The notes beneath the pieces are model-generated. The model was given only the letters and a program-made list of their open reading frames with translations. It was not told the DNA's origin and did not search any database. A DNA stretch of 43,211 bases from Bacteroidota bacterium (GTDB lineage Bacteria > Bacteroidota > Bacteroidia > Palsa-965), in contig JAAFIA010000039.1 of NCBI GenBank assembly GCA_013298545.1, positions 1-43,211 on the forward strand, given 5' to 3'. The position numbers and the translations under genes were made by a program. Each line of letters opens with the position of its first letter. Position 1 is the stretch's first letter. Shown here piece by piece: positions 32,227 to 38,213 of the stretch.

Positions 32227-33051
32227 ATGAAAAAAACAGTTATACTTTTGAGTGTCTTAACGGTTAGCATGTTAGCAATGCAAATCGGAATGGATGCATT
32301 TTCTAACACAAGCGGATCATCCGCTGGAAAAACCGGATCGCCAGGCGATGGTGCGAATTGTACACAATGCCATTCAGGTTCACCACAACAGCAAGCCGGA
32401 TTGATTACAACCAATATTCCTGGCGGTGGTTATACTCCTGGGTTTATCTATCAGATTACGGCAACCATTGTTGATACCAATAGCACAAAATTTGGATTTC
32501 AGGTTTCTCCGCAAAATGTACAAGGCACTCGTTTGGGTACATTGATTGCTACTAATACAACCGAAACACAAACGCAACAAACCGGAAAATACATCACGCA
32601 CAAAACGGCTGGTACACCCGGTGTTGGCATGCGTACATGGACGTTCAACTGGCAAGCTCCTGCATCGGGTACGGGTAATGTAACTTTTTATGGTGCATTC
32701 AATGTGGCAAACAGCAACAACCTCTCTTCTGGCGATCGTATTTTCCTTTCTAGCACGCAGGTGAGCGAAGATTTGACCAGTGTTTCGAATAATACAGAAG
32801 CATTTCCGTCAATCAAATTGTATCCTAATCCAGCGGTTGATTTCCTGCAATTGGATTTAGGCAAACAGATCAACACACCTGTTGATGTGCGCATTTATAC
32901 ATTGGAAGGTCGTTTGGCTGAAAAAAATACAGTAACACCGGAAAACGGTAAAACACTTCAGATTGAAGTTTCAGGATTGGCTACAGGTGTTTATTTCATT
33001 ACACTTGAAACAGAAGGCAATATCACAACTCGTCGCTTCGTGAAAAATTAA
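32227..33051 (+). CDS. Choice-of-anchor V type secreted protein with CxxCH motif and T9SS sorting domain
   Basis: 274 residues. A signal peptide (MKKTVILLSVLTVSMLAMQI) is followed by GSPGDGANCTQCHSG at about 40-50, a heme-c-like CxxCH typical of choice-of-anchor V proteins. A Reeler-like beta domain comes next: FIYQITATIVDTNSTKFGFQ, and GMRTWTFNWQAPASGTGNVT followed by FYGAFN. The last 80 residues form a T9SS type A sorting domain (LYPNPAVDFLQLDL, GLATGVYFITLETEG, RRFVKN). The protein is exported to the surface. The CxxCH may bind heme or act structurally. A clear terminator follows. Confidence 0.88.
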   Translation: MKKTVILLSVLTVSMLAMQIGMDAFSNTSGSSAGKTGSPGDGANCTQCHSGSPQQQAGLITTNIPGGGYTPGFIYQITATIVDTNSTKFGFQVSPQNVQGTRLGTLIATNTTETQTQQTGKYITHKTAGTPGVGMRTWTFNWQAPASGTGNVTFYGAFNVANSNNLSSGDRIFLSSTQVSEDLTSVSNNTEAFPSIKLYPNPAVDFLQLDLGKQINTPVDVRIYTLEGRLAEKNTVTPENGKTLQIEVSGLATGVYFITLETEGNITTRRFVKN

Positions 33052-33868: not shown

Positions 33869-34819
33869 TTAAGTTAAGAGCAAAACAACTATGGCCAAAG
33901 AACCGAATACCAATGCGATACCAATGAGAAAGTTTTGTGCCCATTTAGAAGCCTTATCTCCTGAAGGTTGTTTAGTTGATCCTTGATAAATTCGTTCGGG
34001 AGCAGTTGGATCAGTTGATTCCGCTTTAACTGGTTTCTTCAAAAGAAATGTAATTAGGGCTACTATGAAACAAATTATAGCAATAGCAACATAAAAGGCA
34101 GCGGCTATACTATCAACTCCAACACTTATCGTAACGAATGCGATGATTCCAAAAAACAGAAATAGCAATAAGGCGATTTTCCAAACTCGTGGCCGAAATA
34201 TATCTTCTTTCGTAATTCGTTTTTTAGGTTTATTCGGAAAATAAGCCCGGAAGAAATAAACAAGTAATGCAATCAAGCCTAATGTTACAAACATAGCCAT
34301 TAACATGAGCAGTACAGTATTACTTACGCCAATAATGATGCATACACTTGCTACAAGACCGAAGGCTAAAAAAGCTATAAAAGCTGTTTTAAATAGTCGA
34401 TTTTCCCAGAAATTTTTCCCTGCAATATTGTGTTTTAATTGCTCATTTATTGATTTCTGTTTTAGGTGTTTACCAAGCTCGTTTCTTTTCCAATTTACAA
34501 ATCCAGACTCATCATTGATCGAATCAGTTGCGATTTTATTTTCATTCACATAGCTTGCTGTGCTATTTTTTGCACTATCGGTTGTTCTGCGTTCCGTTTG
34601 TTCAAAATCCGGACTCATACCATTACTCGTCCTTTCGGTAGCAGAATAATTAGCAACGGAATCTTGATTTGATTTTTCACCAGAAATTGCACCTGAACGA
34701 TTAGAAGCAACCCGTTCGATATGCAAACCAGTTGAATTATGACGCTTTTCAATACGGAGTGCATGGCATGAAACACACAATACACTAATTGCGACTAAAA
34801 GTAAATGGGTATTTTTCAT
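33869..34819 (-). CDS. Tandem lipoprotein paralogue 3 with two 2-TM units
   Basis: 316 residues. The signal peptide ends LCVSC, giving a lipidated Cys19. Directly after it comes HALRIEKRHNSTGLHIERV, the family's motif in diverged form. A Ser/Asn/Thr-rich linker (about 40-125) leads to two similar membrane units: NRLFKTAFIAFLAFGLVAS and PRVWKIALLLFLFFGIIAF, each about 65 residues with two or three helices. A last helix closes the protein (FLIGIALVFGSLAIVVLL). The function is unknown. The combination of lipid anchor and polytopic C-terminus is odd. It is AT-rich and has its own intergenic gap upstream. Confidence 0.7.
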   Translation of the reverse strand: MKNTHLLLVAISVLCVSCHALRIEKRHNSTGLHIERVASNRSGAISGEKSNQDSVANYSATERTSNGMSPDFEQTERRTTDSAKNSTASYVNENKIATDSINDESGFVNWKRNELGKHLKQKSINEQLKHNIAGKNFWENRLFKTAFIAFLAFGLVASVCIIIGVSNTVLLMLMAMFVTLGLIALLVYFFRAYFPNKPKKRITKEDIFRPRVWKIALLLFLFFGIIAFVTISVGVDSIAAAFYVAIAIICFIVALITFLLKKPVKAESTDPTAPERIYQGSTKQPSGDKASKWAQNFLIGIALVFGSLAIVVLLLT

Positions 34820-34929
34820 GAGCGAATGTGCTTATCAATTAGTTCAGTAGCATGTTGTTAACTTACTTGTCGTTAAAACATAAAATGCTTAACCGATTTG
34901 TAGTGATTGAGCTTTATGGTTTAAATTAA

Positions 34930-35616
34930 TTATTCGTAAGTGGTAGCAATTCGTATGATTAGAAGAACTAAAAATGTAAGGAAGGTTGACATTAATGCTG
35001 CAAATGCGAGATAGAAGAACCATAAACGTTTACGATCTTCTTCTGCAATTATTTTCTTTTCTGGTTTATTCTTATGCATGAACAAAGCCAAAACACCAGT
35101 GATTAATGCGATCAATGTCATGAATAGAAAAAATAACCCAATACCATAAGCGGACAACAATACCATTGTTATAGCCAGTGCAATAAATAGCAAGGCTTCT
35201 AATAGCAATGCCTTCCACAAACGAGGCTCGATTATGCGTTCAGCATTCTTCACGCTGGCTTGCACCTGTTTAGGCTCTGGCGAATGATCTGCTTTTGTAT
35301 ATCCAGAACTGTTTTTTTGCGGGAAATCAATTTTTTGCTTTGGGCTTTCTACGGCCACTTGAATAAGTGTATCAGAATCCGTTTTTATTATTTGCTTTTC
35401 CTTATTGTCATTGGTATGTATTGTATCAATGCCACGATCTGACTTGGCCCTCTCAGAAAACGCTTGTCCTGTTTCTCGCGTCTCAAGCTCTGGCGCGCGC
35501 GCACCTACCCGATCAACATGCCAGCCATTTTGATAACGACGTTTTTCGATGCGCAAGGTGCTGCACGATGTACTTAGGAGCATCATGGCAACGAGAATAG
35601 AGACAATTGTTTTCAT
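34930..35616 (-). CDS. Tandem lipoprotein paralogue 2
   Basis: 228 residues from ATG 35616, chosen because MKTIVSILVAMMLLSTSC is a lipoprotein signal. The mature N-terminus is STLRIEKRRYQNGWHVDRV, nearly identical to paralogue 1. After an acidic and polar linker (about 40-130) comes a membrane region beginning EPRLWKALLLEALLFIALAI, with about four helices in all. The nucleotides encoding the motif (35510-35547) are identical over 38 nt to those of paralogue 1 (36338-36375). This points to recent duplication or gene conversion. No enzymatic motif is visible. Confidence 0.72.
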   Translation of the reverse strand: MKTIVSILVAMMLLSTSCSTLRIEKRRYQNGWHVDRVGARAPELETRETGQAFSERAKSDRGIDTIHTNDNKEKQIIKTDSDTLIQVAVESPKQKIDFPQKNSSGYTKADHSPEPKQVQASVKNAERIIEPRLWKALLLEALLFIALAITMVLLSAYGIGLFFLFMTLIALITGVLALFMHKNKPEKKIIAEEDRKRLWFFYLAFAALMSTFLTFLVLLIIRIATTYE

Positions 35617-35688
35617 GTTTTTCAGTGTTGTGTATTCGGGTTGTAACACGATGTCTAAAACTAGGTGATAACCGTAATTACGTTAGCT

Positions 35689-36444
35689 TTATGATAGCGC
35701 AATGAATGCCAATCCGAAAATTCCAATAAAACCCAAAGCAACTGACATGAGTAATGCTCCAAGGCTGTACAAAATCCAAACAGTAATTTTCTCGCTCTTC
35801 AAAACTTCGCCCGTATTCGGATCGGGGTGTAAGTGTGGATTTATTTCCTTGCGACAGAGGTAAGAAATTAATGCCGTCAGCAATGCAAAAGAGCCAGCCA
35901 GAATAAATACAATACCGAGCCAAGTGATCAAAGACAAAATGGAAGGAAAACCAAATAAAAGTAAACCAGAGGTAGCTATCAATATAAATGCCGTCAATAA
36001 ACAAGCTTTCCAAAATTTAGGCTCCGAAAAATCGCCTGCGCTGCTTCGCTGTTGAGTATTATTTTTTTGTGCAGCAACCTGCTCTTGTTTCCCTAAACCA
36101 ATTCCCTTATGTTTATGAAAATCTGCTCTAGTTTTCGACGTTGAATCATTGAATGAATTGGGTTGTGGCTGCACTTGATTCGATTGCTCCATCGGTACAG
36201 CAAACACAACCAGTTCTTCTTGTTTCGCTGCAACAGGGTTATCCTCTTCTTTCACAACAGGATTTGCAACAATCGCCTCTGCCGAATCTAGATTTATTTT
36301 TGCTACACTTGGCGAACTCGTTCGGTCTTGCGCCACACGATCAACATGCCAGCCATTTTGATAACGACGTTTTTCAATGCGAAGCGTACTGCAAGATGTA
36401 CAAAGAAGTACAATGGCTATTAGAATGGAAAGACCTGTTTTCAT
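35689..36444 (-). CDS. Tandem lipoprotein paralogue 1
   Basis: 251 residues from ATG 36444; upstream codons in frame are not supported. The signal MKTGLSILIAIVLLCTSC gives a lipidated Cys, followed by STLRIEKRRYQNGWHVDRV. The linker (about 40-140) is rich in Ala, Gln and Glu. The membrane part starts EPKFWKACLLTAFILIATSG and has about four helices. The KRRYxxGWHV-type motif right after a lipoprotein signal recurs in many Bacteroidota proteins of unknown role. The upstream sequences of paralogues 1 and 2 are also alike (tttcatgtnttt...gtgttgtgt), so promoters may have been duplicated too. Confidence 0.72.
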   Translation of the reverse strand: MKTGLSILIAIVLLCTSCSTLRIEKRRYQNGWHVDRVAQDRTSSPSVAKINLDSAEAIVANPVVKEEDNPVAAKQEELVVFAVPMEQSNQVQPQPNSFNDSTSKTRADFHKHKGIGLGKQEQVAAQKNNTQQRSSAGDFSEPKFWKACLLTAFILIATSGLLLFGFPSILSLITWLGIVFILAGSFALLTALISYLCRKEINPHLHPDPNTGEVLKSEKITVWILYSLGALLMSVALGFIGIFGLAFIALS

Positions 36445-36802: not shown

Positions 36803-37990
36803 TTATTTGCGGCGGTTGCGCGCATTGTACCCAACAGATAAACCATAACGCAAGCCTTCGCGCCCAGGAACCACAAAAGCATTGATTGGGATATTCAAGT
36901 TGCCCGAACGGAATGTTTTACCAATGCCAAACACAAACGAAGGTTGTAAGACCACATCGCCACGACTATCTAAACGCGAAATGTATGAAGGCGGTGCAAA
37001 ACCAATATTACTCGTATCGGCTTCCCATTGACCTTGCGTAACAAACGTTTCGCCCACATAATAGCCTTTCGATTTTTGCACCAAACTAAAACTTGGACCA
37101 AAAGCAAATTCCAATCCCCATTTGCTGCTGCGCAATCCATTCATAAACGTCATGCTCGGAATGACTAATCCTTGATCCAATCCGGTAACCATCGGAATAA
37201 ATTCAAACAAGGCTTGAAACGTTCCTGTGTTCAAGTATTGCTTTTCAAACTGATAACCAAACTGAAACATGAGTGGCTGCGCATCAAATCCACCCTCATC
37301 GCGCGATTTGCCTAAGACGTCGGCGGTATGACCTGTAAAAAATGTGCCTCCCATACGTGGTCCGTCAAGTCGCAATTGCGTTTCGTTGGGATTATTTTTC
37401 ATCGACTCGTAATTGTAAGGTTTGGTGAGTTGCGTAAGCAACGTTGCATTGACCGGACGTTTAAACAATTGCAAAAGCATGATGTGCGACATGGTTTGCA
37501 ATTCGCTGGTATTGTTCAAAAATTCGGTTACTTGTGTGCGTTCTACAATACCTTCTTTCACATCAATTAAACGAAGTGTATAAACAATGGTATTGGAATA
37601 CAGCTCGGCACTTCCGGTCAGCATTTTATCGGCACCCAACGTACGGCCTGTTTCTACCAAACATAATTTGCCATAGCAATTTTCTGTTTTGAGTTTATTT
37701 TTCTCAATCAGGTAAGCCACATCATAGCGATCCATCACCTCAAACGAATCGAGTTTTTCTAGTTCGATGCGTACAACATTTCCCAATTGAATCGGATCGA
37801 GGTTGACATTTTTTGAGTCGATGTTGAGTACTACAATTTTTTGACGGACACTCGTTGTTTGTCCCAAAAGAGCATTTGACATGAGCATCCAAAGCGTGCA
37901 AAGTACCACAAGCATGATCGCTTTTCCGCTGAAGCCAGAACGGCTATGTGTTTCGCTTGAACTTGGTGTATGGTTGTTTTCGGTTTTCAT
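36803..37990 (-). CDS. CsgG-like N-domain protein with C-terminal outer-membrane-like region
   Basis: 395 residues from ATG 37990. An N-terminal cytoplasmic-type tail (about 1-24) precedes a hydrophobic signal/anchor (AIMLVVLCTLWMLMSNALLG). The domain at about 45-185 (KIVVLNIDSKNVNLDP, FEVMDRYDVAYLIEKN, GRTLGADKMLTGSAELYSNT, YTLRLIDVKEG) has the pattern of the CsgG/LpoB-like fold, which in other bacteria forms secretion channels or activates envelope enzymes. The C-terminal half shows beta strands typical of outer-membrane barrels (KWGLEFAFGPSFSLVQ, GDVVLQPSFVFGIGK, LRYGLSVGYNARN). The exact role is unknown. Confidence 0.68.
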   Translation of the reverse strand: MKTENNHTPSSSETHSRSGFSGKAIMLVVLCTLWMLMSNALLGQTTSVRQKIVVLNIDSKNVNLDPIQLGNVVRIELEKLDSFEVMDRYDVAYLIEKNKLKTENCYGKLCLVETGRTLGADKMLTGSAELYSNTIVYTLRLIDVKEGIVERTQVTEFLNNTSELQTMSHIMLLQLFKRPVNATLLTQLTKPYNYESMKNNPNETQLRLDGPRMGGTFFTGHTADVLGKSRDEGGFDAQPLMFQFGYQFEKQYLNTGTFQALFEFIPMVTGLDQGLVIPSMTFMNGLRSSKWGLEFAFGPSFSLVQKSKGYYVGETFVTQGQWEADTSNIGFAPPSYISRLDSRGDVVLQPSFVFGIGKTFRSGNLNIPINAFVVPGREGLRYGLSVGYNARNRRK

Positions 37991-38213
37991 CGTTTTGTTG
38001 ATTGGTTGATGAGGCAAAACTAGATGGCGCAACTTAGCTGAGGAAACGGCTTTTTGCAGCACGATTTGGCTTGTATGCAACAAATGCGACTTTCTGAAAT
38101 TCGGTGTTATTCAAAGCCCTTTTTTTGCGATTTTTGCAACTAGTACTATTCATTTTGCATTTTTTGCTTGAAATGAACATACCCATACCGAATACTTACC
38201 ATACGATTATATC

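Follow-up and report, generated by a model that had tools for sequence, protein, structure and literature searches.

Lipoproteins without a surface-export signal are brought to the outer membrane by the Lol pathway. The Pmp3, TM2, DUF4190 and DUF2752 domains are widespread and poorly understood. In Bacteroidota, the lipoprotein export signal (LES), an acidic motif at positions +2 to +6 (K-(D/E)2 or Q-A-(D/E)2 / SDDxx), sends lipoproteins to the surface (PMC5080379). In the outer-membrane lipoproteins Pal, RcsF and NlpE, a disordered linker comes after the lipidated Cys, and NlpE is cited as needing to span the periplasm to the inner membrane (PMC12846838). Finally, TonB and TolA combine an inner-membrane helix with a flexible domain that reaches to the outer membrane, and the periplasm-spanning domain II of TonB has a median length of 113 residues (PMC12204202).

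The tagged proteins described here resemble each of these systems in part. As in LES lipoproteins, a short motif is located just past the (here putatively) lipidated Cys in proteins of Bacteroidota; however, the LES is acidic and directs proteins to the surface, whereas the tag has a basic-aromatic character and a greater length and goes together with membrane helices and a long linker. At our locus, the sequence S-T-L-R-I-E-K-R-R-Y from position +2 does not match the LES. Pal, RcsF and NlpE share with the tagged proteins the (in the latter, predicted) lipidated Cys and the disordered linker but have soluble ends, whereas the tagged proteins have multi-helix membrane ends and a common sequence tag. 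By contrast to TonB and TolA, the tagged proteins have their helices at the C terminus, a lipidated tag as the predicted distal end, no folded domain that binds the outer membrane and no known motor; in particular, the structural model of one of them and hydropathy analysis gave C-terminal helices and no globular C-terminal domain, i.e. not the force-transducer layout of TonB and TolA, in which an N-terminal anchor helix is followed by the disordered domain II and a C-terminal globular domain. In total, we regard the family as lipoproteins that combine an N-terminal address with a long linker; a tether between two membranes is the bolder reading.

Three tagged lipoprotein genes in tandem

The window, i.e. 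the whole stretch of 43,211 nucleotides analysed here (contig JAAFIA010000039.1 of a Bacteroidota bacterium), contains three consecutive minus-strand ORFs at the place where the original prediction had put three lipoprotein paralogues: gA (35689-36444, ATG at 36444, 251 aa), gB (34930-35616, ATG at 35616, 228 aa) and gC (33869-34819, ATG at 34819, 316 aa). The signal peptides, of the SPII type with an n-region and a hydrophobic stretch, end in the lipoboxes LLCTSC, LLSTSC and VLCVSC, respectively, with the Cys at position 18 in gA, and in all three proteins LRIEKR starts three residues past this Cys, as had been claimed. The tag LRIEKRRYQNGWHVDRV (aa 21-37) is identical in gA (36334-36384, minus strand) and gB (35506-35556, minus strand), and the predicted motif RIEKRRYxxGWHVDRV is exact in these two; by contrast, gC has the degenerate version LRIEKRHNSTGLHIERV (aa 21-37; 34709-34759, minus strand), which is without the Tyr. 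The pattern common to the three proteins is LRIEKRxx..G.H..RV.

As anticipated, the tag is followed by a variable polar linker and a C-terminal multi-helix unit, with three, three and five helices after the Cys in gA, gB and gC, respectively, as determined by hydropathy. The membrane domain of gA (35692-36024, minus strand) consists of a two-helix unit and one further helix, and that of gB (34933-35220, minus strand) comprises aa 133-228. In gC, two two-helix units (34202-34399 and 34028-34201, both minus strand) precede a last helix (33875-33931, minus strand). The two units are related, with a local score of 80 compared to 32.6 +/- 5.6 for shuffled sequences and 0 of 500 shuffles scoring as high; the proposed duplication in gC is thus confirmed. 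An AlphaFold2 model of gB has a signal helix (residues 2-20) and helices at 133-153, 157-182 and 192-227. Its mean pLDDT is 63, with values below 50 for residues 43-118 and confidence of 76-83 over most of the three-helix part.

A Foldseek search of the PDB with the gB model gave no fold match (best E 1.9). Similarly, scans of whole gA, gB and gC against Pfam and NCBIfam gave no model above its cut-off and only sub-threshold matches to the helices, in agreement with the earlier statement that no function was recognised. The best match was that of gC to DUF6541 (PF20176), over the helices only, at 22.4 bits compared to a cut-off of 29. None of the three proteins matched DUF4190 (PF13828) in Pfam, despite a similar layout and charged loop, or Pmp3/YqaE (PF01679), TM2 or DUF5670/lmo0937. 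We propose a family defined by a lipobox, the tag [IV]xKRxYxxG[YFW][YH][VI], a linker of about 100-160 aa and C-terminal helices; gA and gB have all of these features, and gC has them with a degenerate tag that lacks the Tyr.

A run of 38 nucleotides, GAAAAACGTCGTTATCAAAATGGCTGGCATGTTGATCG, is exactly the same in gA (36338-36375, minus strand) and gB (35510-35547, minus strand), as originally noted, while the longest run shared by gC is 9-10 nucleotides. The run spans 12 codons (EKRRYQNGWHVD) without a single synonymous difference; with the codon usage of the window, the chance of such codon identity is ~2.6e-4 over these 12 codons and 7.9e-5 over 13 codons. Outside the run, the same codon is used at 20 of the 44 residues common to gA and gB, and both flanking and distal codons have diverged. 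A recent copy, strong constraint and gene conversion had all been considered for this identity. Because the synonymous divergence is non-uniform, we prefer a short and recent event of conversion or copying as the better reading and conclude that it likely generated the tract in gA and gB without involvement of gC. Among the tandem copies in another genome, G550 (four in one stretch), there are many synonymous codon differences across the motif; therefore, constraint on the motif at the DNA level would be unlikely as a general cause.

A portable tag before unrelated membrane domains

A profile built from the N-termini of gA, gB and gC (A1) was searched against genomes from the genus, family and class of the source bacterium. 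At all three levels we found the same arrangement, i.e. ORFs with a signal peptide, a Cys, the motif and a low-complexity linker followed by differing endings. Thus, treating the motif as a private trait of three genes was too narrow, and the combination of a lipid anchor and C-terminal helices, which had been called unusual, is common in this lineage. In its general form, the module reads Cys-x(0-13)-[IV]x-KR-x-Y-xx-G-[YFW]-[YH]-[VI], followed by a disordered, Lys/Ser/Thr-rich linker with a net positive charge and then the membrane domain. The genome that contains the window encodes a fourth tagged copy (L036, at C67:89164). For a further, weaker profile match in this genome (C68:52403, E 2.9e-8) a regular-expression check did not confirm a tagged gene, and a pattern match on contig C120 was a chance match within a dihydroorotase-like ORF.

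At phylum scale, a profile that included the signal peptide (A3) matched any lipoprotein and was dropped in favour of a DNA pattern for the motif only. The pattern KRxYxxG[YFW][YH][VI] had matches in 100 of 396 genomes of the class; more than 150 matches were listed, compared to about 40 for the reversed pattern (counted from the table). They were clustered in some families and sparse or absent in others, with up to seven per genome (G550). A scan of named genomes restricted to IEKRRY gave matches in Flavobacteriales, other Bacteroidia MAGs and Crocinitomix. There was no tagged ORF at a match in Spirochaetia (L159).

Among 113 in-frame matches selected by the motif DNA alone, 103 have a lipobox Cys at most 24 residues upstream. 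Two of the ten others (L197, on the reverse strand at about 247, and L205, at about 2029) are tagged proteins whose type I signal peptide, once cleaved, would expose a Gln right before KRxY, presumably reflecting the Q-rule of Bacteroidota; therefore, lipid anchoring is not indispensable. A third (L183) is a short ORF in which Ser replaces the Cys; the remaining matches look like chance frames. The consensus of 96 collected proteins has 0-13 residues after the Cys, then [IVFLM], often E/Q/T, K (93/96), R (92/96), R/K/H, Y (93/96), two variable positions, G (96/96), Y/F/W, Y/H, V/I and often D/E/S. Because several of these positions were fixed by the regular expression used for collecting, the DNA-only test is the fairer one. 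Similarly, S, A or G at lipobox position -1 (96/96) was imposed by the collecting script, whereas L or F at position -3 (79/96) was not a selection criterion. Between orthologues, the tag is 60-100% identical, compared to 22-91% for the linker, which is below 65% in most pairs; the tag is thus under constraint.

Tandem duplicates are frequent (L040, L055, L152, L154, L168, L172, L228 and L229). Among these, L154 (G550:C34, Flavobacteriales MAG CRAIB_MAG100) has four motif matches within about 4 kb, with three full tagged paralogues and another copy.

With one N-terminal profile we recovered fusions to Pmp3, TM2, DUF5670/lmo0937 and unnamed helical domains. Many tagged proteins have a C-terminal domain that scores as Pmp3/YqaE, TM2, DUF4190 or DUF5670/lmo0937: among 99 members, Pfam assigned DUF4190 to 19, Pmp3 to 14, TM2 to seven and DUF5670 to seven, and NCBIfam assigned the CCC motif membrane protein model (NF040945) to eight and lmo0937 to eight. 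The fourth copy in the genome of the window ends in a Pmp3 domain (43.8 bits compared to a cut-off of 22.9), and the TM2 ending of another tagged protein scored 50.7 bits. At the level of sequence, these fusions show that the N-terminus is a portable module with several unrelated membrane domains behind it. Because the module is found before unrelated membrane domains, the C-terminal unit is the interchangeable part. Three tagged lipoproteins of 355-454 aa (L072, L221 and L223) have long Gly/aromatic-rich ends that resemble outer-membrane barrels and match no Pfam model.

Searches that started from the C-terminal domains led back to the tag. A Pmp3-only search of 119 genomes gave either short proteins (about 50-75 aa), which are without an N-terminal extension and differ from the tagged proteins in having no lipid tag or linker, or long ones, most of which, on reading, had a lipobox together with either the tag or one of its variants ([KR][KR]xY / RKYxxF; e.g. 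KRKYLKNF, RKYYNF and RKYTHF). Starting from TM2, we obtained tagged proteins (L278, L280, L282, L288, L290 and L292), others whose signal peptide is of type I, and short proteins.

The sole recurrent neighbour with a functional look is DUF2752 (CPGCGLTRA), which directly adjoins tagged Pmp3 or TM2 genes at eight loci (L048, L050, L055, L073, L120, L201, L219 and L231), co-directionally in all and downstream in seven; the five neighbours that were scored gave 51-63 bits compared to a cut-off of 27. Other shared neighbours reflect synteny between close relatives or common genes. No DUF2752 gene lies beside gA, gB and gC. At L266, a DUF2752-like ORF is located beside an untagged Pmp3 protein with a type I signal peptide. 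We found no model of the KRxYxxG tag in Pfam or NCBIfam, including NF040945 and DUF2752, and the open-licence literature held no description of the motif, of tagged Pmp3 or TM2 proteins, or of DUF2752. The tagged family is widespread yet apparently undescribed.

A minimum spacing that accompanies the tag

The distance from the Cys to the first helix is 106-216 residues (median 130, quartiles 122-142), with a single exception of 40. When classes were assigned with simple patterns, the floor was 115 residues for Pmp3, 111 for TM2, 120 for DUF5670 and 125 for DUF4190-like domains. We conclude that a minimum of about 106 residues is common to unrelated C-terminal domains. In L197 and L205, the two tagged members that carry a type I signal peptide, the helix begins about 126 and 128 residues past the cleavage site, respectively; in the untagged type I homologues L260, L266, L277 and L281, this distance is about 46, 46, 51 and 95. 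Cleavage sites were judged by eye, and the untagged group comprises these four proteins. Because the tagged type I proteins keep the spacing and the untagged ones do not, the spacing accompanies the tag and not the lipid.

The linkers were not enriched in O-glycosylation sites (D[ST][AILMVT]; 33 compared to 30 +/- 5 in shuffled sequences). Many longer members (L044, L151, L154, L204, L206, L208 and L209) have an extra domain, CDxIxLKNGxExxAKVxEI..IKYKxC...GP...KSDVFMIKYPNG, between the tag and the helices.

A two-membrane tether and its alternatives

The reading we favour, with slightly less than even confidence, is that the lipid-anchored tag is held far from the inner membrane, likeliest at the outer membrane, by a tether of the size of that in TonB. 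As judged from the lipobox, lipoprotein peptidase would cleave the signal peptide and the new N-terminal Cys would be lipidated, and the basic-aromatic tag [IV]xKRxYxxG[YFW][YH][VI] would stand next to it. A disordered, periplasmic linker of about 110 residues would lie between the tag and a small helical domain that is predicted to sit in the inner membrane with its N-terminus towards the periplasm. Because the spacing floor is the same across unrelated domains and follows the tag rather than the lipid, the tag would have to extend to a place distant from the inner membrane, most likely the outer membrane on its periplasmic side, to which the Lol pathway would carry the lipid. In this arrangement, every protein would act as a flexible tether from the outer to the inner membrane and keep a small membrane domain (Pmp3, TM2, DUF4190-like or another) under a common outer-membrane site, and some of these domains may act with DUF2752. 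We infer this purpose, as well as the outer-membrane end and the partner of the tag there.

In support of the tether, the median distance from tag to helix is 112.5 residues, close to the 113 residues of TonB domain II (PMC12204202). Moreover, the tag is without an acidic surface-export signal, as expected for a periplasm-facing lipoprotein. The chief difficulty is that, in three-helix members including gB, the loop that joins helix 2 to helix 3 is rich in Lys/Arg (mean 2.96 in the 25 proteins scored with three helices); in the tether topology this loop would be periplasmic, which contradicts the positive-inside rule. The net positive charge of the linker, the two tagged proteins without a lipobox, the three barrel-like endings and the small size of the untagged comparison group (four proteins) also count against the tether, and we know of no close precedent for delivery to the outer membrane of the lipid on a protein with inner-membrane helices.

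A short motif that recurs in one and the same position before at least four unrelated membrane-domain families, at a fixed minimum distance to the membrane, behaves like an address label. If the tag is a mark for the outer membrane or for a receptor located in it, it would offer a ready test of the linkage between inner and outer membrane beyond model organisms, it would name many genes now called 'hypothetical' (as many as seven motif matches in a single genome, G550), and it would provide a functional setting for Pmp3, TM2, DUF4190 and DUF2752. In its most far-reaching form, which we consider doubtful, the proposal is that of a sorting and docking module used throughout this class of Bacteroidota, in which a lipidated KRxYxxGYxV tag anchored or docked at the outer membrane would be bound by a dedicated receptor and linked by a length-gauged tether to interchangeable inner-membrane mini-domains.

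The main alternative to the tether, possible but in our view rather improbable, is docking at a periplasmic partner without insertion in the outer membrane. Here, the lipid and the helices would both reside in the inner membrane, the KRxY tag would avoid Lol or bind a partner in the periplasm or the peptidoglycan, and the linker would be a floppy loop. This would fit with every recognised C-terminal domain being of a helical inner-membrane type and with the basic stretch past the Cys, which is unlike known surface-export signals; moreover, the two tagged proteins without a lipobox suggest that the tag may itself be the docking peptide. However, neither the floor of about 106 residues across unrelated domains nor the link between tag and spacing in the type I proteins would be explained unless the partner is far from the membrane.

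We regard a reversed topology, in which the N-terminal helix would be an uncleaved anchor, KRxY its positive-inside flank, the linker cytoplasmic and the Cys incidental, as very unlikely. The Lys/Arg-rich second loop of the three-helix members, which is the chief difficulty for the tether, would fit the positive-inside rule in this orientation, as would the basic residues after helix 1. However, 103 of the 113 matches have the Cys at a lipobox although they were not selected for it, two members have exchanged the Cys for type I sites exposing a Gln in line with the Q-rule, related untagged Pmp3 and TM2 proteins carry type I signal peptides, and the tag is conserved even when located up to 13 residues from the Cys. 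Equally improbable is an ordinary old gene family, with an N-terminus explained by descent and domain swapping and a linker length that is inherited rather than selected: tandem duplicates and the recent 38-nt tract in gA and gB would fit with it, but the tag is kept while the linker sequence is mostly lost and one spacing floor holds across unrelated C-terminal domains, and since length is held while sequence is lost, passive inheritance is disfavoured.

In the window, two genes for secreted proteins were also observed near gA, gB and gC. One (36803-38083, minus strand), directly upstream of the three genes, weakly resembles DUF2380/LpoB, with matches at E 8.6e-4 and 0.086 that do not reach the cut-offs. 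The other (32227-33051, plus strand) contains a haem-like motif, NCTQCH, and a domain of the sorting type at its C terminus.
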